IMG/VR virus record: IMGVR_UViG_3300017748_000002
Coordinates: 59,333 to 123,332 of that record
Origin: a virus
Strand: one strand, 5' to 3'
Length of the DNA: 64,000 nt
Below the pieces are notes generated by a model that saw nothing but the letters and a program-made list of their open reading frames with translations, had not been told where the DNA came from and ran no database searches. The position numbers were made by a program, and so were the translations under genes. This document shows positions 49,391-62,468 of the stretch, one piece after another; the stretch's first letter is position 1; each line of letters starts with the position of its first letter.

Positions 49391-51880
49391 ATGTCGTTTT
49401 ATACTAACATCTGCCGTTATGGCAACACTATTCTGTACCGTGGTTACAATCAACACGGTAAGCGCATCTATAAACGCGATACAGAATTTAAACCAGTTTT
49501 CTTTACAGAAACAAAAACTCTTACTGAATGGACGTCACTAGACGGTAAGCGTATTGCGCCTATTGAAATGGCCAGCATGCGTGATGCGAAAGAATGGCTA
49601 GAATCAAACCGTGATGTTGCTGGTCGTAAGATCTATGGCAACGCAAAGTATCTTCAACAATACGTCACTCAACGTTTTCCACGCGATATTGAATTCAAGC
49701 GTGAATGTATTGATGTTGGTACCTTCGATATTGAAACAGAATATGACGATGGATTTCCGCATCCAGCTGAAGCATCTCAAAGAATTCTTTCAATTACTTA
49801 CAAGTCTAGTAAGTCAAAACTATATCACGTCTGGGGTTATGGCGATTTCGATACTGAGAAGAGTCTTATTCAACCTGTTCGCTATTATCGGTGCCGAGAC
49901 GAAGCAAGTCTCCTCGGTAAGTTCCTTGACTTCTGGTCCGATCCTGATAAGACTCCAGACGTAATTACTGGTTGGAATATTCGTTTCTTTGATGTTCCAT
50001 ACCTTATTAATCGTACTGCTAAAATTCTTAGTATCGACTCTTGTAAAGCGTTCTCTCCTTGGAGAATGGTTGATCATCGAGAAATAACTCGCCGTGGTCG
50101 GACAGAAATCGCTTATGATATTAAAGGTATCGAACAGCTTGATTATATGGAACTCTTCCAAAAGTTTGGATATTCCTATGGCGCTCAAGAATCATATGCT
50201 TTGAATCATATTGCCTACGTCGTTCTTGGTGAAAAGAAGTTATCATACGAAGAAGCCGGCTCTTTGAAAAATCTCTACAAACAAGACTTTCAAAAGTACA
50301 TTGACTATAACATGAAAGACGTTGAGTTGGTTGAACGCATCGAAGACAAGATGGGTTTGATTACTTTGGCTATGACTATGGCGTATAAGGGTGGTGTGAA
50401 CTATTCTGATACGTTTGGTGTAACGAATATTTGGGAATCGATCATCTATCGTAAACTCAATTCTGAAAAACGTGTACCACCGGTATGGACTCCTGATTTT
50501 GGCAAGTCTAAGTTTGCTGGCGGTTACGTCAAAGAACCGCATGTTGGCGCTCATGACTGGGTAGTATCGTTTGATTTGAATTCACTTTATCCTAACATTA
50601 TTGTTCAGTGGAATATGAGTCCTGAGACTCTTATCAATCAAGCTGAAATATCTGGTGTTGAATATTACATGAATTCTGATCCATACACCGGTGAAGGTGC
50701 TCTTGCTGCAAATGGTTCTACCTATCGAAAGAATATCGATGGTGTGATTCCCTCTATCATTGTTGACTACTATGATGATCGTAAGTCAATTAAGAAAATG
50801 ATGTTGGCAGCAGAATCTCAATATCAAGAAGAAAAAACAACTCAACTTGAGAAAGAAATCAATAAGCTTAATAACCAGCAAATGGCAATTAAGATTCTGA
50901 TGAATTCTCTTTATGGCGCTCTCGGCAATCAATACTTCAAATACTTCGACCTCCGACTTGCCGAGGGCGTTACTCTTACCGGTCAATTGGCTATTCAATG
51001 GGCTGAACGCAATGTCAATAAGTATATGAATGAAATACTTGAGACAACCGATATTGACTATGTTATCGCTATCGATACTGATTCGCTTTATGTTAACTTT
51101 GGTCCAATGGTTGAAAAGTTCAAACCAGAAAATCCAGTCAAATTCCTTGACATGGTTTGTAAGACAAAGTTTGAAACTGAAATCGGTAAATGCTATGAAA
51201 AACTCTTTCATAATATGAGTTGTTACAAACCACGTATGGAAATGGGTCGTGAAGTAATTGCTGATCGTGGTATATGGACCGCAAAGAAACGATACATATT
51301 AAATGTACACAACTCTGAAGGAGTACAGTACGCTGAACCAAAACTCAAAATCATGGGTATTGAAGCCATCAAGAGTTCTACTCCGGAAGTTTGCCGCGAT
51401 AAGTTCAAAGAGATCTTCAAGATCCTAATATCTGGATCTGAAGATGACGCTCAGGCTTATATCAAAAACTTCAAACAAGAGTTTAAATCGCTCCCTGCAG
51501 AAAAGGTCGCGTTCCCTAGGTCGGTCTCGAATATTACTGACTGGTCAGATCGAAAGTCTATATACAAAAAAGGATCTCCTATTCACGTTCGAGGTAGCCT
51601 TCTCTACAACAAGTTATGTAAGGACAACAAACTTACAAAGAAGTATGAGCTGATTCAAAATGCGAATCGAATCAAATTCTGCTACATGAAGATGCCAAAT
51701 CCAATTCATGAGAATGTTGTAGCTTTTCCAGAAGTACTTCCGCCTGAATTGAAACTCGATCACTATATAGATTATGATTTACAGTTTGATAAAACTTTCG
51801 TTGAACCACTCAAACTTATTCTTGACGCGATTGGTTGGAATCCAGAACCAGTCGCAAGTTTAGATGAATTTTTCGCATAA
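49391..51880 (+). CDS. gp43: DNA polymerase gp43 (family B)
   Basis: The 829-aa polymerase has Exo I FDIETE (about 112-117) and Exo II VITGWNIRFFDVPYL. Motif A is VVSFDLNSLYPNIIVQWNMSPE (about 391-412), motif B KILMNSLYGALGNQYF (about 500-515) and motif C IAIDTDSLYVNFG (about 560-572). The KKRY-type motif is WTAKKRYIL. The 3'-5' exonuclease is intact. A C-terminal clamp-binding tail (SLDEFFA) is present. T4 gp43 is 898 aa. It is undivided, without intein or intron. Confidence 0.96.
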   Translation: MSFYTNICRYGNTILYRGYNQHGKRIYKRDTEFKPVFFTETKTLTEWTSLDGKRIAPIEMASMRDAKEWLESNRDVAGRKIYGNAKYLQQYVTQRFPRDIEFKRECIDVGTFDIETEYDDGFPHPAEASQRILSITYKSSKSKLYHVWGYGDFDTEKSLIQPVRYYRCRDEASLLGKFLDFWSDPDKTPDVITGWNIRFFDVPYLINRTAKILSIDSCKAFSPWRMVDHREITRRGRTEIAYDIKGIEQLDYMELFQKFGYSYGAQESYALNHIAYVVLGEKKLSYEEAGSLKNLYKQDFQKYIDYNMKDVELVERIEDKMGLITLAMTMAYKGGVNYSDTFGVTNIWESIIYRKLNSEKRVPPVWTPDFGKSKFAGGYVKEPHVGAHDWVVSFDLNSLYPNIIVQWNMSPETLINQAEISGVEYYMNSDPYTGEGALAANGSTYRKNIDGVIPSIIVDYYDDRKSIKKMMLAAESQYQEEKTTQLEKEINKLNNQQMAIKILMNSLYGALGNQYFKYFDLRLAEGVTLTGQLAIQWAERNVNKYMNEILETTDIDYVIAIDTDSLYVNFGPMVEKFKPENPVKFLDMVCKTKFETEIGKCYEKLFHNMSCYKPRMEMGREVIADRGIWTAKKRYILNVHNSEGVQYAEPKLKIMGIEAIKSSTPEVCRDKFKEIFKILISGSEDDAQAYIKNFKQEFKSLPAEKVAFPRSVSNITDWSDRKSIYKKGSPIHVRGSLLYNKLCKDNKLTKKYELIQNANRIKFCYMKMPNPIHENVVAFPEVLPPELKLDHYIDYDLQFDKTFVEPLKLILDAIGWNPEPVASLDEFFA

Positions 51881-51919: not shown

Positions 51920-52333
51920 ATGAATAAAAAATGGCACGAAGATATCTGGGACATGCACTACAAGTTTGGTGTACACCAGTGGATTATGGAAAACATTGAC
52001 GACAAAGAAAAGATGTCAAAGTTTCTAGAATTTAGAATGAAGTTTCTTGATGAAGAGCTTACTGAAACAAAGAACGCTGTAGAGAATAAAGATCCACAAG
52101 AAATTGTTGATGGCCTCATCGACTTATGTGTTGTGGCAATCGGTACTCTTGATGCTTTTGGCGTAGATGCTCAAGTAGCTTGGGATCAAGTTCACAACGC
52201 AAATATGGCCAAGAATCCGGGTGTAAAAGAAACACGTCCGAATCCACTTGGTCTACCAGATTTGATTAAACCTGAAGGATGGACTGGACCTGAACATGAC
52301 GACAACACCGGGCATTTCCCTCACGCTCTTTAA
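51920..52333 (+). CDS. MazG-like nucleotide pyrophosphohydrolase
   Basis: The 137-aa helical protein has FRMKFLDEELTETKNAVENKDPQEIVDGLIDLCVVAIGTLDAFGVD, the EELxE...DxxxD metal-binding pattern of all-alpha NTP pyrophosphatases. The conserved phage tail MAKNPGVKETRPNPLGLPDLIKPEGWTGPEH follows. Marine phage MazG proteins hydrolyse dNTPs or alarmone-like nucleotides. It overlaps the next gene by 38 bases. Confidence 0.83.
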   Translation: MNKKWHEDIWDMHYKFGVHQWIMENIDDKEKMSKFLEFRMKFLDEELTETKNAVENKDPQEIVDGLIDLCVVAIGTLDAFGVDAQVAWDQVHNANMAKNPGVKETRPNPLGLPDLIKPEGWTGPEHDDNTGHFPHAL

Positions 52334-53742: not shown

Positions 53743-54048
53743 ATGCAAGAAGATTATATTATGTCAGGTGCTCTTTATGATCATATCATGAAGCAGCGTA
53801 GAGAAGCTGAAGAATTCAGCAAGCAACCTGGGTGCTTCATGGGGATGATGCCTCATCCGTCTGAGACCAAGTATTGGTCGCAGCGTGTTCCTACTGGTAC
53901 TCTTATTGAGTACAAGCGTATTGAGCTAGAAGAAACAGCTTACTACATTACCGCAGATAAGACAAGTAAGTCTTATGCTCGGACTCTTGATTTTGAAGCG
54001 TGGTCCGATGAAAAGATCGAGGCCCATATCGAAAGGATGTGTGCGTAA
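53743..54048 (+). CDS. Conserved hypothetical protein
   Basis: The 101-aa protein has a helical N-terminus (YDHIMKQRREAEEFSKQPGCFMGMMPHPSETKYWSQRV) and a strand-rich middle (LIEYKRIELEETAYYITADKTSKSYARTLDFEAW). No known motif. It has the best non-structural promoter of the region and GAGGAG, so it is probably made early and in quantity. A host-takeover or regulatory role is possible but not shown. Confidence 0.55.
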   Translation: MQEDYIMSGALYDHIMKQRREAEEFSKQPGCFMGMMPHPSETKYWSQRVPTGTLIEYKRIELEETAYYITADKTSKSYARTLDFEAWSDEKIEAHIERMCA

Positions 54049-54395
54049 TGAAATACTCACTCAAAGTTCTGCAAAAAGCTGCAGAAATTCAAACTAAAAA
54101 ATCTTCTGATTATCAGAATCCAAACTCACGGATCAAACAAGCAGACTACTATTGTCGTGGTTGTTCTACTATCCTTGACACTATGCATGCCAAAGTTCTT
54201 CGTATGCAGTCTGTTATGGAAGCTATGGAATCTGATCCAAACTATGGTCAAAACTTTGAATCGCTCGAAGATTCATGTATCGATCTGATCAACTATGCTT
54301 CTTTCTTTGCCTCATATCTTGCTGGTGAAATGGAAGGTCAAAAGCCTGATCGTGATTTTTTAAATCGTCCTAGGAATACTACAGATGAAAATTAA
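54048..54395 (+). CDS. DUF1599/Nmad1-like nucleotide modification-associated protein
   Basis: The 115-aa protein has QKAAEIQTKKSSDYQNPNSRI, DTMHAKVLRMQSV and FESLEDSCIDLINYASFFASYL, the core pattern of DUF1599 (nucleotide modification-associated domain 1). Members are found in phages that carry modified bases. ATG 54048 overlaps the previous stop (TAATGA). Its exact biochemical role is not known to me. Confidence 0.65.
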   Translation: MKYSLKVLQKAAEIQTKKSSDYQNPNSRIKQADYYCRGCSTILDTMHAKVLRMQSVMEAMESDPNYGQNFESLEDSCIDLINYASFFASYLAGEMEGQKPDRDFLNRPRNTTDEN

Positions 54396-54726
54396 TATTA
54401 ATGATATTGGTGGTGAAGTCGTCAAAGAAGACGATCGTTATAAAGTAGTTGACAATAAGACACTAAACAATCTTGTAGTAAGTAGTACTGACTTATACGC
54501 TTTTAAGGCTACTAGTGGCCATGCTCACGTTGGTCAAGAAGAAGTTTACAATTTTGTCAAAGGTTCTGGTAAGATGGAAATGATTGACTTGAATGGAAAA
54601 CACCACGACCAAGTTGTAAAAGAAGGCGATGTTGTTTTGATTCCAGATGGTTGGTTTCACCGAGTTCATGCTGGTCCACATGGTTGTTACTTTGTTTGTG
54701 TCTTTGACGGAAAGCGCAGTCACTAA
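54385..54726 (+). CDS. Cupin-domain protein
   Basis: The 113-aa protein has cupin motif 1 SGHAHVGQEEVYNFVKGSGKMEM (His-x-His...Glu) and motif 2 EGDVVLIPDGWFHRVHAGPHG. It is a single-domain metal-binding beta barrel, perhaps a sugar or nucleotide-sugar isomerase or epimerase, or a binding protein. It overlaps the neighbours (TAATG downstream). Confidence 0.82.
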   Translation: MKININDIGGEVVKEDDRYKVVDNKTLNNLVVSSTDLYAFKATSGHAHVGQEEVYNFVKGSGKMEMIDLNGKHHDQVVKEGDVVLIPDGWFHRVHAGPHGCYFVCVFDGKRSH

Positions 54727-54932
54727 TGTCTGAACTCAAAGAAAAAATTAATCAACGAATGGATATTCTCCAAAATTGGATGGAGAAAAATTATCACTTA
54801 AAACGACCAGAAGTAGTTTCAAGTCATATTGAATCAGTAAGTAAATTTTGGTCTATTTTATCTGAAGAAGATCGTGACTATATACAGTGTAGTCAACATG
54901 CAATTGAAGATCAAAGGGAATGGATCGTATGA
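54726..54932 (+). CDS. Small helical protein
   Basis: The 68-aa protein: SELKEKINQRMDILQNWMEKNYHLKRPEVVSSHIESVSKFWSILSEEDRDYIQCSQHAIEDQREW. It is all-helical and charged. It overlaps the cytidylyltransferase-like gene by four bases (ATGA). Similar small proteins are frequent in marine T4-like genomes. Function unknown. Confidence 0.6.
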   Translation: MSELKEKINQRMDILQNWMEKNYHLKRPEVVSSHIESVSKFWSILSEEDRDYIQCSQHAIEDQREWIV

Positions 54933-55351
54933 AAATAGGATTAACTGCATCAACGTTTGATCTCCTCCACGCAGGTCATGTAGCCATGTTGAGAGAAGCA
55001 AAATCTCAATGTGACTACTTGATCTGTGCTCTTCAGGTAGATCCGACTTTTGATAGAGCTACAAAGAATGCTCCAGTACAAAGTATTGTCGAAAGGCAAG
55101 CTCAATTGGCTGCAATTAAATATGTCGATGAAGTCATTATTTATTGTACAGAAGCTGATTTACTTGATATAATAAACATGTATCCAATTAATGTGCGGAT
55201 ACTTGGCGAAGAGTATCGTCAAAAAGATTTTACTGGTAAAGACGAATGTCGTAACCGTGGAATCGAATTATACTTTAATAAACGAGACCACCGGTTCTCG
55301 TCTAGTGATTTGAGAGAAAGAGTAAAAGATGCGACAGCTAACCGTAAGTGA
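54929..55351 (+). CDS. Cytidylyltransferase-like nucleotidyltransferase (TagD-like)
   Basis: The 140-aa protein has TASTFDLLHAGHVAMLREAKSQCDYLICAL (HxGH motif HAGH) and the C-terminal HRFSSSDLRERV (ISSTxLR-like). These are the signature of glycerol-3-phosphate cytidylyltransferases and related adenylyl/cytidylyltransferases. It forms an NDP-alcohol from a phosphorylated substrate. It may activate a small group for transfer to DNA, lipid or glycan. Start at ATG 54929 by overlap with the previous stop. Confidence 0.83.
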   Translation: MKIGLTASTFDLLHAGHVAMLREAKSQCDYLICALQVDPTFDRATKNAPVQSIVERQAQLAAIKYVDEVIIYCTEADLLDIINMYPINVRILGEEYRQKDFTGKDECRNRGIELYFNKRDHRFSSSDLRERVKDATANRK

Positions 55352-56009
55352 TATTCGTAAATTTTTTATTGGAGAACTAAATGATGAATCATACACCACC
55401 GACAAAACTGGACAAAAGACAATTGAACTGCTTGGCGCTTCATTTCTTGCAGACGAACCAGCCATTTTTGGTACTCCCAACCAAGAGTACATTGATCGAG
55501 AAATCGATTGGTATTGCAGTGGTAGTACTAATATCAATGACATTTATGGTGATGAGCGCGAACCTCCTGAAGCATGGAAATATGCTGCCAATAAACATGG
55601 AGAAATCAATTCTAACTATGGTCGACTGATTTTCGACGATATATATTATAGGCAGTACGAAAACGTTCTTTGCGAATTGGCAGATACCAATGATACTACA
55701 AGACGTGCTACAATGGTTTACAACCGACCAAGCATCTGGGCAGAGTACCAAGATGGTAGTAAAAACGATTTTATTTGTACTAATGCTGTCACTTATTACA
55801 TTCGCAATGGTGAACTCCAAGCTGTTGTCCAGATGCGATCCAACGATGTCGTGTTCGGATACAAGAATGATTATGCTTGGCAGCGTTATGTAATGGGATT
55901 AATTTGCCAAGATCTTGGTGGTGGTAGAGATACACTCAAACCGGGCAACTTAATCTGGCAAGTACAAAATTTACATGTCTATGAAAGGCATTTCCACCTT
56001 GTCAAATAA
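55329..56009 (+). CDS. Thymidylate synthase / dNMP hydroxymethylase-like protein
   Basis: The 226-aa protein belongs to the thymidylate synthase superfamily. The segment ICTNAVTYYIRNGELQAVV and following QMRSNDVVFGYKNDYAW aligns residue by residue with the catalytic Cys...RS(C)D...N region of thymidylate synthase. It keeps the nucleophile Cys and phosphate-binding RS. The C-terminus HVYERHF resembles the NHxxQ/HxY end. The usual His after the nucleophile is Thr. The Asn in KNDYA matches the uracil-selective Asn rather than the Asp of T4 dCMP hydroxymethylase. A dUMP hydroxymethylase is therefore possible. Confidence 0.7.
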   Translation: MRQLTVSDIRKFFIGELNDESYTTDKTGQKTIELLGASFLADEPAIFGTPNQEYIDREIDWYCSGSTNINDIYGDEREPPEAWKYAANKHGEINSNYGRLIFDDIYYRQYENVLCELADTNDTTRRATMVYNRPSIWAEYQDGSKNDFICTNAVTYYIRNGELQAVVQMRSNDVVFGYKNDYAWQRYVMGLICQDLGGGRDTLKPGNLIWQVQNLHVYERHFHLVK

Positions 56010-56436
56010 ATGGGATGAAAGATATTTAGACTTAGCCGCGGGTGTTGCTGGCTGGTCTAAAGACCCGTCACGGAAGATCGGAGCCGTGGCAGTTGGATCA
56101 AAGGGCAGTGTTCTTGCTCAAGGGTTCAACGGGTTTCCTCGTGGGATTAGTGATTCACCTAATCGTTATGAAGATCGCACGAGAAAATACGAACTGGTAG
56201 TCCACGCAGAAATGAATGTAATTTATAATGCGACTTATAATGGTGTCTCTCTTGACGGTGCTACATTATACGTGCACGGGCTACCAGTTTGTTCCGATTG
56301 TGCCAAAGGGATTATTCAAGTTGGCATAAAACGAGTGGTCATGAAAGACCAAGAGATACCAGATCTCTGGCAACAATCATGGACTAAAACAGAAGAAATG
56401 TTTAACGAAGCAGGAGTCGACTATGAGTTCATATGA
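55975..56436 (+). CDS. dCMP deaminase
   Basis: The 153-aa zinc enzyme has VVHAEMNVIYNA (His, Glu) and VHGLPVCSDCAKGIIQVGIKRVV (two Cys ligands). RKIGAVAVGSKGSVLAQGFNGFPRGI forms the N-terminal strand pair. It converts dCMP to dUMP, which feeds the adjoining thymidylate synthase-like enzyme. It overlaps that gene by 35 bases. The start may be ATG 55975 or 55981. Confidence 0.9.
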   Translation: MSMKGISTLSNKWDERYLDLAAGVAGWSKDPSRKIGAVAVGSKGSVLAQGFNGFPRGISDSPNRYEDRTRKYELVVHAEMNVIYNATYNGVSLDGATLYVHGLPVCSDCAKGIIQVGIKRVVMKDQEIPDLWQQSWTKTEEMFNEAGVDYEFI

Positions 56437-56632
56437 AGCTTATATGGTGAAGCGTCTTAGAGAAGAAGACGAAAAGGCAGGTATTACTATTCAACATAGT
56501 AATTTACGATTGACTAAAGAAGTTGAAGAATTAAAAGCTAGAATTAAACAACTTGAAACTGATATGGCATATCAAACAAAACCATTTGCTACTAGTCCAG
56601 AAGAACAACGAATATACGATTTGAAAACATGA
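56423..56632 (+). CDS. Small coiled-coil protein
   Basis: The 69-aa protein has a heptad region LRLTKEVEELKARIKQLETDMAYQ. It overlaps the dCMP deaminase end and the next start (ATGA). No known family. It may oligomerise with a neighbour. Confidence 0.6.
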   Translation: MSSYEAYMVKRLREEDEKAGITIQHSNLRLTKEVEELKARIKQLETDMAYQTKPFATSPEEQRIYDLKT

Positions 56633-57000
56633 CACACGTATTAGTTATTGGACACAGCCCAAGCCCTTCTTCTACCAAGAGGAAGGGCAATCCTACATTA
56701 AACCGGCTAAACCGGTGGCTCGATGCATGTGATGTAAGAATATACAGCTTCACGAATCTTGCTCACTCGAGCGCCGGTTCTCTCAAAAAGGCTGAAATAT
56801 GTGATACTATGTTTCACGATATCTTTAAGAATTATACTAAAGTAATAACTTTAGGTAAAGAAGTGAAACAATATACTAATAAAATGGGCTACGATTTTTA
56901 TGAGCTTCCGCATCCAAGTCCGCTAAACCGTAATCTCAACGATAAAAAGTACGAAGAAGACGTAATTAAAGGTTTACAAAGCTTCATACATATGGTATAA
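56629..57000 (+). CDS. Uracil-DNA glycosylase superfamily-like protein
   Basis: The 123-aa protein has an N-terminal VLVIGHSPSPSS...GNPTLNRLNRWLD resembling UDG motif 1 and SFTNLAHS. KVITLGKEV leads to LPHPSPLNRNLND, resembling UDG motif 2 (HPS...). It is shorter than typical UDGs, so it may be a minimal family member. In a cluster with dUMP-level enzymes it could excise or sense unmodified uracil/thymine analogues. Assignment by motif only. Confidence 0.5.
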   Translation: MTHVLVIGHSPSPSSTKRKGNPTLNRLNRWLDACDVRIYSFTNLAHSSAGSLKKAEICDTMFHDIFKNYTKVITLGKEVKQYTNKMGYDFYELPHPSPLNRNLNDKKYEEDVIKGLQSFIHMV

Positions 57001-57001
57001 T
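56973..57001 (+). promoter_or_regulatory. Sigma70-type promoter for the 57029 gene
   Basis: GG then TTTACA-N17-TATAAT, overlapping the 3' end of the UDG-like gene. The expected +1 is near 57008, with GAGGA before ATG 57029. Confidence 0.83.
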
Positions 57002-57028
57002 ATAAACACAATTGAGGAATAGTATATT

Positions 57029-58120
57029 ATGAAAAAAATCTTAGTAACTGGGATGAACCACGAGCAAACACGCTATGATGGTTATCTCTCAAAACGCATT
57101 GGAGTGATCCTTTGCCATTACGGTCTTATTCGTTGTCTTGAAGATATGGACTTCGAAGTAACTCAAAAACATACTCAACCCGGTGAAGATCTTTCTGAAT
57201 ACGATCATGTGATTGTATATCTACACAGTCCTAATGGTTTTTGTCAACGTATCTTTGACGGGCTATGGGCACTCAACCAAAGACCGGATGCTATTCTAGC
57301 TTTTGACGATTGGCAAGTCAAAGATATTTTCAATGGTGTAATTGGTTATGGTAAAGCTCTGAAGGAACGTCCTGAGTCTGCTTATCGTGGTCATATCCTT
57401 GATCAATATCATACAGTCAAAGATGTAGATCAGGTAAAGAAGTATCACCAAGCTTACATTGACGCAATCGATATGGTTGCTGAAAAGAAGAATAAAGTTT
57501 TGATGTGTGCTTTTGCTGGTGGTGATCTCAGTAAGTTGATGGATTATCCACAAGAACTGGTTTATAGTTTCAACCCTAATCCATACCACTTAAATCGTTC
57601 TCATGAAAATAATTATGGAATGGAAGCTGGTGGTCTAGACGATTTCTTTGGTGGACCTGAAGCTCCGTCTCCAGAGAAGAAATCAAAAGCGTGGATCTTT
57701 AGTTCATTGGTACAAACTAAAACACGTAAGTGGTTAGACAAACAAGAATTGAATTGGGATGTACGTATCTACGGTGCTCAACGCGGAGCATTCAAAACCG
57801 AACGCCTGACCGAAGATAAAATGGTACAAGAATACGAAACTACTTGGGGTAACCTGATGCCGGGATACGATCATTCAGGATCTGGCTGGTGGAGAACACG
57901 AGTATTACAATGCGCTGAAGCTCGATCAATTACTATTTGTGATCCTGTTGAAGGTAAAGTTTATGGTGAAGAGTTCCTTATTACTCCAGCCGAAGTTGAA
58001 GCAATGGATGATAGTCAGCTATGGAAGAAAGCAAACGCACAGCGTGAAAACTTCCTAGATAATCACCCACTAAATAAGGATGTCACCAAACAAGAAATTA
58101 TGGAGGTCTTAAATGGCTAA
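57029..58120 (+). CDS. Possible GT-B glycosyltransferase
   Basis: The 363-aa protein has a Rossmann-like N-terminus (KKILVTGMNHEQTRYDGYLSKRIGVILCHYGLIRCLEDMDFEV) and an interdomain segment VLMCAFAGGDLSKLM. The C-terminal Rossmann-like half has WIFSSLVQTKTRKWLDKQELNWDVRIYGAQRG and GYDHSGSGWWRTRVLQCAEARSITICDP. The Glu/Arg-containing donor-site pattern of GT-B enzymes could lie in 'ARSITICDPVEGKVYG'. It is the start of a promoter-driven unit with UDP-sugar genes, so it is a candidate DNA-base or glycan glycosyltransferase. No clear family match by eye. Confidence 0.42.
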   Translation: MKKILVTGMNHEQTRYDGYLSKRIGVILCHYGLIRCLEDMDFEVTQKHTQPGEDLSEYDHVIVYLHSPNGFCQRIFDGLWALNQRPDAILAFDDWQVKDIFNGVIGYGKALKERPESAYRGHILDQYHTVKDVDQVKKYHQAYIDAIDMVAEKKNKVLMCAFAGGDLSKLMDYPQELVYSFNPNPYHLNRSHENNYGMEAGGLDDFFGGPEAPSPEKKSKAWIFSSLVQTKTRKWLDKQELNWDVRIYGAQRGAFKTERLTEDKMVQEYETTWGNLMPGYDHSGSGWWRTRVLQCAEARSITICDPVEGKVYGEEFLITPAEVEAMDDSQLWKKANAQRENFLDNHPLNKDVTKQEIMEVLNG

Positions 58121-59069
58121 AATTTGTATCACCGGTGGAGCAGGCTTTATTGCATTCCATCTCACACATAAACTAATAGAACTAGGTCACGAAGTTGTTG
58201 GCTTTGATAATTACAACGATTATTACGATCCAGGGCTAAAACATACTCGAGCAAATATTCTTCACGATCGATTCGGCGTTATCATGGAAAACGTAGATCT
58301 ATTGGATCGCAAGAAGCTTACTCAGTGGATGAAAACAAATAGTCCAGATGTTGTAATGCATTTAGCAGCATATGCCGGAGTACGTCATTCGCTTGATTAT
58401 CCGGATGACTATATTTCAAACAATATTGTCGGTACACATAATCTTATCGAAGCGTGTAATGATGCTCGTATAACTAAAATCACATATGCCTCAACCTCGT
58501 GTGTAATGGCTGATAATCCTCTCCCATGGAATGAAGACGAAAAGATTGGAGTAGCTAAGAATCCATACGGTTATTCTAAAGCTACCAATGAAGCACAGAT
58601 GATCTCTTCTAAAATTGATTCAACTATTGGCTTACGTTTCTTTACAGTGTATGGTCCTTGGGGCCGGCCTGATATGGCGCTGTTTGACTTTACTAAAAAC
58701 ATTGTTGCCGGCAATCCAATCCAACTTTTCAACTATGGTGATATGGTTCGTGATTTTACGTACGTCGAAGATATTGTTCAAGGCATCGTAATTATTATCA
58801 ATCGTCTTTTAGATAATCAAGACATTAACGAAATCTATAATATTGGTTTTGGTGATCAAATTCAGCTGGTTGATTTTGTAGAACATATTGAGAAGAACTT
58901 AGATCGTACAGCTATTCGTGAATTAGTTGAAATGCATCCTGCCGACACTCAAGCAACATGGTCTGATACGACTAAGTTACAAGCACTCGGTTACAAGCCA
59001 ACTACAAATATTGCGGAAGGTGTAGCTAAATTTATTGAATGGTACAAGGAATATTATAATGTCAATTAA
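58113..59069 (+). CDS. UDP-glucuronate 4-epimerase-like SDR
   Basis: The 318-aa extended short-chain dehydrogenase has the NAD motif ITGGAGFIAFHL and the FDNYNDYYDPGLKHTRA block typical of UDP-glucuronate 4-epimerases. Catalytic YGYSK (YxxxK), TSC in ASTSC and RFFTVYGPWGRPDMA are present. It should interconvert UDP-glucuronate and UDP-galacturonate. The adjoining UDP-glucose dehydrogenase would supply its substrate. It overlaps both neighbours. Confidence 0.87.
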   Translation: MAKICITGGAGFIAFHLTHKLIELGHEVVGFDNYNDYYDPGLKHTRANILHDRFGVIMENVDLLDRKKLTQWMKTNSPDVVMHLAAYAGVRHSLDYPDDYISNNIVGTHNLIEACNDARITKITYASTSCVMADNPLPWNEDEKIGVAKNPYGYSKATNEAQMISSKIDSTIGLRFFTVYGPWGRPDMALFDFTKNIVAGNPIQLFNYGDMVRDFTYVEDIVQGIVIIINRLLDNQDINEIYNIGFGDQIQLVDFVEHIEKNLDRTAIRELVEMHPADTQATWSDTTKLQALGYKPTTNIAEGVAKFIEWYKEYYNVN

Positions 59070-59883
59070 TATCGCAATCATTGGTCATGGTTACGTAGGT
59101 AAAGCTGTTGACCACGGCTTTTCCACAAGTCAAGTTGAGAAGTATATTGTAGATCCACTTTATGGAACTACACTCGATCAACTGAAAGGTAAAGTTCGAT
59201 TAGATGCTGCCTTTGTTGCAGTACCAACTCCCTTTGGTTCAGACGGTGAAATCGACGCTTCAATCGTAAAAGATGTTGTACGTCAACTAGAACATTTTAG
59301 TTGTCCGATTATTATTAAGTCAACCACAACTCCAGATATTGTAGATGAACTCTATCTTGAAAACGAACGTGTAGTTTACAACCCAGAGTTTTTGACTGAA
59401 AAGAATGCTCTTGACGATTTCATTAATCCACCAATGCACGTACTTGGTGGTAAGAGAAAGTATTGTGAACGTGTTCTTGATCTATATGAAAACTATTCGC
59501 AATGTAAACCATGTCAAGTTTTCTATATGACAGCCAAAGAAGCTTCATTCGTTAAATACGGAATCAACTCTTACCTCGCTACTAAAGTTCTATGGTTTAA
59601 TCAATTCAAAGATATTGTTGAAGACTGGGAAGGCAAGTATAATGTGATTGTGAATGCGATTGGTAGTGATCCACGTATTGGCCATAGTCATACTCAGGTT
59701 CCAGGGCCAGACGGACGTAAAGGTTTTGGCGGAGCTTGTTTCCCAAAAGATACTAACGCTTTCTCTACCTTTTCAAAAGGAGACTTTGGCGTCCTTGACG
59801 AAGTAATCAAACATAATAACGTATATAGAAAATCTTACGATCTTGATGAACGTGAAAAAGAACAGAAAGTAAATTATGGTTAA
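59059..59883 (+). CDS. ugd: UDP-glucose/GDP-mannose 6-dehydrogenase
   Basis: The 274-aa protein has IAIIGHGYVGKAVDHGF (NAD site), VAVPTPF, STTTPDIVDEL, YNPEFLTEKNALDDF and the active-site Cys motif KGFGGACFPKDTNAF. It is shorter than bacterial Ugd (about 390-440 aa) and lacks most of the C-terminal NDP-binding domain, as seen in compact phage forms. ATG 59059 follows AAGGA. It should oxidise UDP-glucose to UDP-glucuronate. Confidence 0.85.
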   Translation: MSINIAIIGHGYVGKAVDHGFSTSQVEKYIVDPLYGTTLDQLKGKVRLDAAFVAVPTPFGSDGEIDASIVKDVVRQLEHFSCPIIIKSTTTPDIVDELYLENERVVYNPEFLTEKNALDDFINPPMHVLGGKRKYCERVLDLYENYSQCKPCQVFYMTAKEASFVKYGINSYLATKVLWFNQFKDIVEDWEGKYNVIVNAIGSDPRIGHSHTQVPGPDGRKGFGGACFPKDTNAFSTFSKGDFGVLDEVIKHNNVYRKSYDLDEREKEQKVNYG

Positions 59884-61066
59884 TTATGCCAGTATAGTAC
59901 CACTTATTGGTGGTGAAACAATTGCTATGCAGAATGTCGTTGGAAATAAACCCGAGTACATTCTGTCGTACGAAGGTTTTGAAAGTAATGATAAACACCT
60001 ATTGGAATATTATAAAAACGAAGTTCCCTATCATCTTATCAAAGACGGTGAGCTTCCTGATGTTAATAGTGTTGATATTGTTAACACTGTTTGCCCTTGT
60101 GCTGGCTTGTCTAGTCTCAGTCCTTCAAGTAATTCTGAGTCTGCTACTAATGATTGGATGCGTATGTCTGCAGAGTATATACTCGATAGCGTCAAACCAA
60201 AAGTGTTTTGGGGAGAAAACGCACCAAGACTTGCTAGCAAGATGGGAGAGCCAGTTGTCAAAGATTTACGACAAATTGGCCAAAAATACGGATATACTTT
60301 TTCAATATTTAAAACAAAAAGTCTCTTGCATGGACTTTCTCAAGTAAGAGATAGAGCTTTTTATTTTTTCTGGAAAGGTGATAAGGTTCCAGTATTTGAA
60401 TATATAAATCGTACGCACCAAACAATCGAAGATGCCATTCGATCTGTCAACAGAAATCCAGCAGATCCAATGGACATTCTTGCCAATGAGGCAAAGCCAA
60501 CTGATAACGCATACTATAAGTATGTTCTTCAATTGTTGAATACAACTCATCAAAAGTTTGCTGCTAGTATCGAAAAAACTACGAATCCTATGGAATGGAT
60601 CTATGCTAATGATTCATTCTTAAAAGCAGCCGATTGGATGGATGCTAATGGATATGAAAGAGAAGCCGCTAAGTGCCGACGTAAGTTTGACAAGTTAGCT
60701 TCAGGCGGTAATATTATGTGGCACAATATTGAAATTCCAAAAGACCACATCGGTGCTTTTGTAGGTCATCGACCAACATCAATAGCGCATCCAGATGAAG
60801 ATCGCTTTTTGACTATTAGAGAATGTCTATCACTAATGAAAATGCCAGATGATTTTATTCTCCAAGGTGGTCGTAAAAATCTCAATCACATTTGTCAAAA
60901 TGTACCTGTCACCACTGCTGAAGACATGGCCTCTGAAGTAGTCAAGTTTGTAGAAGGTCGTTCTGATAACAGGCTCATCGAGACAAACTATTTAATTCAA
61001 GATAACAAAAATAATTCATGGTGGTCTGAAAAAAGTAGTGTACAACTCGATGATTTTATGGTATAA
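59876..61066 (+). CDS. DNA cytosine-5 methyltransferase-like protein
   Basis: The 396-aa protein follows the C5-MTase motif order. A motif-I-like VPLIGGETIAMQNV is followed by DIVNTVCPCAGLSS with the PC dipeptide (catalytic Cys, motif IV) and PKVFWGENAPRLA (motif VI ENx). GLSQVRDRAFYFFW is motif VIII (QxRxR). DRFLTIRECLSLMKMPDDF and ICQNVPVTTAEDMASEV are motifs IX-X. Motif I and motif IV are unusual (CPC instead of GPPC). It may methylate phage DNA or carry out a related C5 reaction. Confidence 0.75.
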   Translation: MVNYASIVPLIGGETIAMQNVVGNKPEYILSYEGFESNDKHLLEYYKNEVPYHLIKDGELPDVNSVDIVNTVCPCAGLSSLSPSSNSESATNDWMRMSAEYILDSVKPKVFWGENAPRLASKMGEPVVKDLRQIGQKYGYTFSIFKTKSLLHGLSQVRDRAFYFFWKGDKVPVFEYINRTHQTIEDAIRSVNRNPADPMDILANEAKPTDNAYYKYVLQLLNTTHQKFAASIEKTTNPMEWIYANDSFLKAADWMDANGYEREAAKCRRKFDKLASGGNIMWHNIEIPKDHIGAFVGHRPTSIAHPDEDRFLTIRECLSLMKMPDDFILQGGRKNLNHICQNVPVTTAEDMASEVVKFVEGRSDNRLIETNYLIQDNKNNSWWSEKSSVQLDDFMV

Positions 61067-61427: not shown

Positions 61428-62468
61428 TTGAGTATTATGGATAAATTGAAAAAGAATTCGAAAGTTAAAACAACTGAAGTTTTGGCTGAATCGAAATTCT
61501 TTAATGATAAAGATATGATCCCAACCGAAGTACCCATGATGAACGTTGCTTTATCTGGCTCTACTGATGGTGGATTGGCACCCGGACTCACAGTGCTTGC
61601 TGGTCCATCAAAACACTTTAAGACATCATTTGCTTTGATTATGGCAAGTGCTTATTTGAAAAAGTACAAAGATGCTGTACTTTTATTTTATGATTCAGAG
61701 TTTGGTTCACCTGAACAATATTTTAAGATGTACGATATTGATACCAATCGTGTACTTCATACACCAATTACAAATGTTGAAGAATTGAAGTTTGATATTA
61801 TTGGTCAAATGGAATCTTTAGATCGTAAAGACAATGTTATTATTGTTATCGATTCAGTTGGTAACCTCGCATCAAAGAAAGAACTTGAAGACGCTATCAA
61901 CGAAAAATCAGTTGCTGATATGTCTCGAGCAAAAGCACTCAAAGGTTTGTTCCGTATGTGTACACCATACTTGAATATGAAAAACATTCCATTGATTGCA
62001 GTAAACCATACTTACCAAGAAATTGGTTTGTTCCCGAAAGCGATTGTATCCGGTGGTACCGGTATCTATTATTCTGCTGACAACATCTGGATTGTTGGTC
62101 GTCGTCAGAATAAAAAAGGTACTGAAGTTACTGGCTATGATTTTGTAATCAATGTAGAGAAATCGCGTTATGTTAAAGAAAAGTCTAAGATTCCCATTAG
62201 TGTTAGCTGGGAAGGTGGAGTACAGAAGTGGTCTGGTCTGCTTGACGTTGCTATGCAAGGTAAATATGTGGCTAAGCCATCTGCAGGCTGGTATTGCCGC
62301 GTTGACCAGACGACTGGTGAATTATCTGAGTCTAAAGTACGAGAAGCCCAAACTCTAGAAGAAGACTTCTGGAAACCAATCTTTGCTGAAACCAACTTTG
62401 CCGAATATCTAACCGAATGTTATAAGATCGGCGGTAAATCTCATGTTGACATTGAGGATGAAGAATGA
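61428..62468 (+). CDS. uvsX: Recombinase UvsX (RecA-like)
   Basis: The 346-aa recombinase has Walker A LAGPSKHFKTSFAL at about 56-69, LLFYDSEFGSPEQYF, Walker B VIIVIDSVGNL and AVNHTYQEIGLFPKAIVSGGTGIYYSADNIWIVGRRQNK. It forms filaments on ssDNA with UvsY. The start is TTG 61428, eight bases after AAGGAG (61414-61419); ATG 61437 is too far from that site. T4 UvsX is about 391 aa. Confidence 0.94.
   Translation: MSIMDKLKKNSKVKTTEVLAESKFFNDKDMIPTEVPMMNVALSGSTDGGLAPGLTVLAGPSKHFKTSFALIMASAYLKKYKDAVLLFYDSEFGSPEQYFKMYDIDTNRVLHTPITNVEELKFDIIGQMESLDRKDNVIIVIDSVGNLASKKELEDAINEKSVADMSRAKALKGLFRMCTPYLNMKNIPLIAVNHTYQEIGLFPKAIVSGGTGIYYSADNIWIVGRRQNKKGTEVTGYDFVINVEKSRYVKEKSKIPISVSWEGGVQKWSGLLDVAMQGKYVAKPSAGWYCRVDQTTGELSESKVREAQTLEEDFWKPIFAETNFAEYLTECYKIGGKSHVDIEDEE

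Follow-up and report, generated by a model that had tools for sequence, protein, structure and literature searches.

A predicted operon for uronic acid-capped hydroxymethylcytosine between the DNA polymerase and uvsX genes of a marine T4-like phage

Why would a phage carry genes for making sugar nucleotides between its DNA polymerase and its UvsX recombinase? The question is raised by a 64,000-nucleotide stretch of viral DNA, hereafter the window (positions 59,333 to 123,332 of IMG/VR record IMGVR_UViG_3300017748_000002). This stretch makes up the right half of a 123-kb contig (G000) from a marine T4-like phage with a bacterial host. Phage T4 DNA contains glucosylated 5-hydroxymethylcytosine (hmC), and in T4 the order is pol-imm-42-b-gt-uvsX, so that gene 42 and b-gt occupy the same interval. 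In RB69, the interval is occupied by arabinosylation genes (PMC6024577).

We consider it fairly probable that the block in the window is a DNA-hypermodification operon that caps hmC with a uronic acid. In this explanation, the hydroxymethylase would convert dCMP to 5-hydroxymethyl-dCMP, which the phage polymerase would incorporate into DNA. A short dehydrogenase (59059; proteins are named by the start of their gene, Table 1) would oxidize host UDP-glucose to UDP-glucuronate, and the 58113 epimerase would convert this to UDP-galacturonate. A glycosyltransferase (GT) resembling the T4 beta-glucosyltransferase (BGT), 57029, would then transfer the uronic acid to hmC in DNA. The sugar would most likely be galacturonate, with glucuronate a less likely possibility. 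The enzyme families, their active-site residues and their genetic linkage are observed at the locus. They support the hydroxymethyl-pyrimidine with a uronic acid cap proposed in the initial annotation, and from them we infer the DNA modification itself and the identity of its sugar.

The block is bounded by the polymerase and uvsX, and includes a MazG-like pyrophosphohydrolase. All of its genes lie on the + strand, many with overlaps of a few bases, and operon-like overlaps of 8-11 bases join the reading frames of the GT, epimerase, dehydrogenase and C5-cytosine methyltransferase (C5-MTase). Every gene in the adjacent enzyme set listed by the initial annotation was found, on the + strand and at the same coordinates. 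The adjacency is not due to chance, because the gene order is preserved across independent contigs.

The 55329 protein, described initially as thymidylate synthase (TS)/hydroxymethylase-like, is of the gp42 type. Its best PDB match was T4 dCMP hydroxymethylase, and alignment to this structure (1b49) and to the D179N mutant (6l18) showed that the catalytic Cys and Asp179 are retained. Asp179 was taken as the marker of dCMP specificity in the TS fold, which narrows the modified pyrimidine to cytosine, not uracil. In Mosigvirus, arabinosylation has been reported on 5-hydroxy-dC, which is produced by a distinct TS homolog (PMC13390438). The 55329 protein scored 230 bits against gp42, versus 28 bits against RB69 ORF048c, of the 5-hydroxy-dCMP synthase type. 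The gp42-type match and the low ORF048c score make 5-hydroxymethyl-dCMP its most likely product.

The 57029 protein matched no Pfam or NCBIfam family, and its PHROG, phrog_14998, is annotated as "unknown". An AlphaFold (AF2) model built from a 33-member alignment had a mean pLDDT of 88.7. The best PDB match of the model was T4 BGT both in Foldseek (1qkj, E 1.2e-8) and in VIA-align (1nzd, Z 18.7, 301 residues, rmsd 3.6, 14% identity), so that the possible GT-B enzyme noted initially is borne out, with T4 BGT first in the PDB. Lower VIA-align matches included glycogen synthase (Z 17.1), the top of the other GT-B enzymes, and the T4 alpha-glucosyltransferase (AGT; Z 15.9); such lists alone leave room for other GT-B families. 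Because the GT-B fold is common, sequence profiles were also compared. Local comparison of the 57029 family with the BGT family by hhalign gave 77% for the C-terminal part and 69% for the N-terminal part. Controls gave 0.1-0.2% (AGT family), 1.6% (dehydrogenase family) and at most 3.5% (60 column-shuffled BGT profiles). Family profiles were required for this result, as a single-sequence comparison of 57029 with T4 BGT was weak (12%). No profile similarity to the 57029 protein was found for RB69 ORF003c or T4 AGT.

Arg269 of BGT corresponds to Arg291, which is invariant in the 57029 family. The position of BGT Glu272 is occupied by Gln294 in the 57029 protein, and Gln is also found in a distant BGT (L112). 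The invariant D94 (FDDWQ) of 57029 was aligned by eye with LFTD100 of BGT, in a stretch left unaligned by hhalign, and is probably the counterpart of the catalytic Asp100. The model and profiles together identify 57029 as a putative remote homolog of T4 BGT and a predicted hmC transferase. In a phylogenetic tree, the GT clade of the window had 100/100 support and a stem of 1.14, and was nested in a family dominated by relatives linked to UDP-galactopyranose mutase (UGM). Two arginines near the N-terminal loop, Arg15 and Arg23, were gained only in this clade. The long stem and the gained arginines would fit a change of sugar donor.

The two genes that follow the GT gene encode the candidate donor pathway. 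The 58113 protein is homologous to UDP-glucuronate 4-epimerases (GAE), and retains the residues T126, S127, Y149, K153, T178 and R185 of the Bacillus cereus enzyme UGAepi (6zl6), which are invariant in six homologs. Alignment to 6zl6 thus accounts for the catalytic Thr/Ser-Tyr-Lys as well as the carboxylate-binding Thr178/Arg185. In UGAepi, Arg185 contacts the carboxylate of UDP-galacturonate, and perturbing this support gives a decarboxylase (PMC12338863). In the 59059 protein, Glu110, Lys166, Asn170, Cys227, Lys230 and Asp231 are invariant. It is best described as a short enzyme resembling UDP-glucose 6-dehydrogenase (UGD), a form common among marine phages and conserved in them. Together, 58113 and 59059 would provide UDP-galacturonate from host UDP-glucose.

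Table 1. Genes of the block and its borders, with window coordinates and the basis for each assignment
Feature	Coordinates	Strand	Basis
DNA polymerase, T4 gp43 type (left border of slot)	49391..51880	+	phrog_262, 1018 bits
MazG-like nucleotide pyrophosphohydrolase	51920..52333	+	phrog_671 E 9e-23
DUF1599-like protein (nucleotide modification associated domain 1)	54039..54395	+	Pfam E 0.034, under cut-off; phrog_1485 E 4e-11
Small cupin	54385..54726	+	Cupin_1 E 9e-7
RfaE2/TagD-type nucleotidyltransferase	54920..55351	+	PF01467 E 6e-12
dCMP hydroxymethylase, T4 gp42 type	55329..56009	+	50% identity to T4-type gp42; PDB 1b49 E 1.5e-67
dCMP deaminase	55975..56436	+	PF00383 E 6e-19; phrog_174 E 3e-44
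UDG-superfamily-like protein	56629..57000	+	Pfam UDG E 3e-4, under cut-off
Predicted DNA hmC glycosyltransferase, remote T4 beta-GT homolog	57029..58120	+	AlphaFold model, structure matches, profile comparison
UDP-glucuronate 4-epimerase (GAE) homolog	58113..59069	+	best PDB 5u4q E 1.5e-72; also 6zl6 (B. cereus UGAepi)
Short UDP-glucose 6-dehydrogenase	59059..59883	+	PF03721 and PF00984 only; alternative ORF start 59035, an upstream TTG
C5-cytosine methyltransferase-like protein	59876..61066	+	PF00145 E 2e-19
UvsX recombinase (right border of slot)	61428..62468	+	phrog_97 E 1e-88

To examine which genes travel together, viral contigs were gathered by GT, by dehydrogenase and by uvsX. The surveyed loci are anchored on genes of the cluster and are not independent samples, and we give counts without probabilities. 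The hydroxymethylase, dCMP deaminase and GT were adjacent in nearly all GT loci, and stayed together in four relatives (L014-L017) in which the whole block has moved to a site away from uvsX. In the majority of GT relatives, UGM adjoins the GT in the same slot, often with a GalE-like protein or a short-chain dehydrogenase/reductase (SDR). The window GT clade has GAE and UGD in place of UGM, and other relatives either carry an additional GT or lack a cassette. UGD was present in 11/12 contigs of the window clade, versus 0/38 others (fragments included).

In sister loci with the same GAE-UGD-C5-MTase-uvsX order, the place of the GT is taken by a member of the T4 AGT family (PF11440 E 1.4e-54, 33% identity to T4 AGT), and other loci contain TAGT (PF20691) between pol and uvsX; a search for TAGT in the contig of the window gave no match. 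All 12 of the pol-to-uvsX contigs with both GAE and UGD carry a BGT-like, AGT or TAGT enzyme. In the uvsX-anchored sample, one of these three families was found in every locus with a visible gene upstream of the GAE-UGD pair (17/17). Within loci, GAE-type SDRs occurred with UGD in 72/75 cases, and UGD or GAE occurred with UGM in 0/49. This pattern suggests that the GAE-UGD pair is linked to DNA, via three unrelated families of DNA-base GTs.

Elsewhere, relatives of 57029 also lie in DNA-modification settings. In phage C48C1, the relative is next to a TET_JBP oxygenase and UGM. In Morganella phage Rgz1 (L005:8001-9068), it lies between arabinose-5-P isomerase and a homolog of ORF53_52, that is, within the arabinose module, and could be the transferase missing from the arabinose modules of Morganellaceae phages (PMC8056088).

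Variation in sugar genes was also seen at other loci. In L064, L065, L068 and L074-L077, a second GT (GT1/GT4-like, 361 aa, or GT8-like, 227 aa) separates the dCMP deaminase from the BGT-like GT, which suggests a disaccharide on the base. In L066 (9071-11654), genes for a DAO-type oxidoreductase, an SDR and a TIM-barrel sugar isomerase-like protein lie in that order between the GT and the C5-MTase, and possibly form an additional sugar cassette.

Several observations weigh against a uronic acid on hmC. No phmmer match to the T4 gp1 dNMP kinase or gp56 dCTPase was found in G000, an incomplete contig, in which the MazG-like protein is present. The C-terminal UDP-binding domain of UGD (PF03720) is absent from 59059 by Pfam. 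The C5-MTase is puzzling because C5 should be blocked in hmC DNA, so that full hydroxymethylation would remove its substrate. In addition, a UGM is encoded on the same contig (G000:18689-19777), so that UDP-galactofuranose could be made. Its identity to GT-linked UGMs is 58-73%, and 70-73% to the closest of them. In C48C1, GAE-UGD lies between pol and uvsX, but the GT relative is located at a distance of 14 kb, together with UGM. The donor may thus be galactofuranose, or the product mixed.

We consider it unlikely, on balance, that 57029 transfers galactofuranose supplied by the UGM, ~98 kb upstream on the contig, with GAE-UGD making another product. UGM does adjoin the GT in the majority of its relatives, Aeromonas phage 25, Erwinia FBB1 and C48C1 among them. 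However, the G000 UGM sits among LPS (lipopolysaccharide)-type GT-like genes, and its closest homolog (L084) does not come from a near relative of the window GT. In the window clade, the gene overlap with the GT involves the GAE-UGD pair, not UGM, and the pair and UGM are mutually exclusive in loci.

The GT might instead glucosylate hmC with host UDP-glucose, with the sugar genes as unrelated passengers. T4 BGT, which uses UDP-glucose as donor, is a precedent; the GT relatives L025-L036 have no nearby donor cassette, and neither UGM nor UGD is encoded on G017, a contig of 125 kb. We regard this as improbable, as the catalytic residues of GAE and UGD are conserved, the genes overlap the GT gene, and the pair accompanies three different DNA GT families. 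It is similarly doubtful that UDP-galacturonate undergoes a further conversion ahead of its transfer, to a furanose or a pentose for instance, giving a different sugar on hmC. The nucleotidyltransferase and cupin of the block are unexplained, and L011 and L014 contain a second epimerase-like gene, but no decarboxylase (UDP-xylose synthase) was found among the cluster genes, and the residues whose loss turns UGAepi into a decarboxylase are intact in 58113 (PMC12338863). The second epimerase-like gene of L011 and L014 was itself considered as a UDP-xylose synthase; its closest PDB chains belong to the same 4-epimerase group, and a pentose is unsupported. Least probable is that UGD and GAE modify host LPS or capsule, the customary reading in marine myophages, for which a pelagiphage paper assigned rfaE and UDP-glucose 6-dehydrogenase to LPS (PMC7029224): LPS-type genes do occur elsewhere in the window phage, but the pair lies in the replication region with the hydroxymethylase and DNA GT genes, outside the tail-fiber/LPS island, and it follows three DNA-base GT families and is swapped there for a galactofuranose cassette, which also disfavors the glycan function that had been raised initially for the sugar genes.

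The remaining genes of the block recur among relatives. The MazG-like gene accompanies the block in L014-L018, and its product is a possible dCTP/dUTP-removing enzyme. The DUF1599-like gene recurs ahead of the hydroxymethylase, and the UDG-like gene is a recurrent neighbor of the same genes. The RfaE2/TagD-type nucleotidyltransferase was found in 34/80 short-UGD loci, often adjoining UGD, and may act on a sugar or a phosphoglycerol-like group. In the C5-MTase-like protein, the catalytic PC, ENxP and QxRxR motifs are invariant in 51 homologs, and a gene of this type with intact motifs terminates many hydroxymethylase-GT modules. No TET_JBP oxygenase was found in G000, and the control genomes of the same search likewise gave no match. 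Elsewhere, a long cluster at positions 1-20078 of the window encodes radical-SAM-like (CxxxCxxC) proteins, together with SGNH/GDS-like proteins that recur (7693, 14854, 16390, 17286, 18158), and is unrelated to the base-modification block.

More broadly, the hydroxymethylase core may be constant in marine T4-like phages, with both the sugar cassette and the DNA GT open to exchange. Relatives would then have galacturonosyl-, galactofuranosyl- or galactosyl-hmC, with the window phage having an anionic uronic acid form; we hold the case for this wider scheme to be evenly balanced. We infer enzyme activity, donor choice, the extent of replacement and protection against host nucleases from the genes described above. 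If the uronic acid is present, each modified cytosine would bear a charged sugar, which would change how the DNA packs, how enzymes gain access to it and how restriction, CRISPR and glycosylase defenses recognize it, and genes usually labeled as LPS-modifying would be reassigned to DNA modification. Swappable cassettes suggest a marine arms race over DNA sugar chemistry, and the loci provide DNA glycosyltransferases with candidate new donors.

Among known systems, the locus is most readily compared with T4 hmC glucosylation (gp42, b-gt, a-gt), with which it shares a gp42-type hydroxymethylase, a BGT-like GT and the gene 43-uvsX slot. Unlike T4, the window phage encodes a UDP-uronate supply, its operon has a deaminase and a C5-MTase, and its GT is only remotely related to BGT (~14% identity in the structural alignment). 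The AGT- and TAGT-type marine phage loci found here (L121, L132 and others) have the same GAE-UGD cassette and slot, but differ in the family of the DNA-base GT.

Other sugars have been described on phage DNA, including a pentose in Thanatos (PMC12838424) and arabinosylated cytosine in RB69 and Mosigvirus (PMC6024577, PMC13390438). The RB69/Mosigvirus module likewise places sugar-supply genes and an enzyme of the TS family between pol and uvsX, and in Rgz1 contains a relative of the window GT, but its TS homolog and its sugar genes are different; homologs of arabinose-5-P isomerase and ORF53_52 gave no phmmer match in the contig of the window. A uronic acid is found on the DNA of Bacillus phage SP-15, as phosphoglucuronate on dihydroxypentyluracil (PMC5977210), and SP-15 also encodes a UDP-glucose dehydrogenase (gp146). 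Unlike in the window, this uronic acid is attached to a modified uracil via a phosphodiester, the GTs are different, the cluster has no 4-epimerase, and the dehydrogenase is full-length. No report of a uronic acid or galactofuranose on hmC was found in the literature searched. What the block would add to these systems, as predicted from its genes, is a T4-type glycosylation of hmC with a new, swappable donor cassette.

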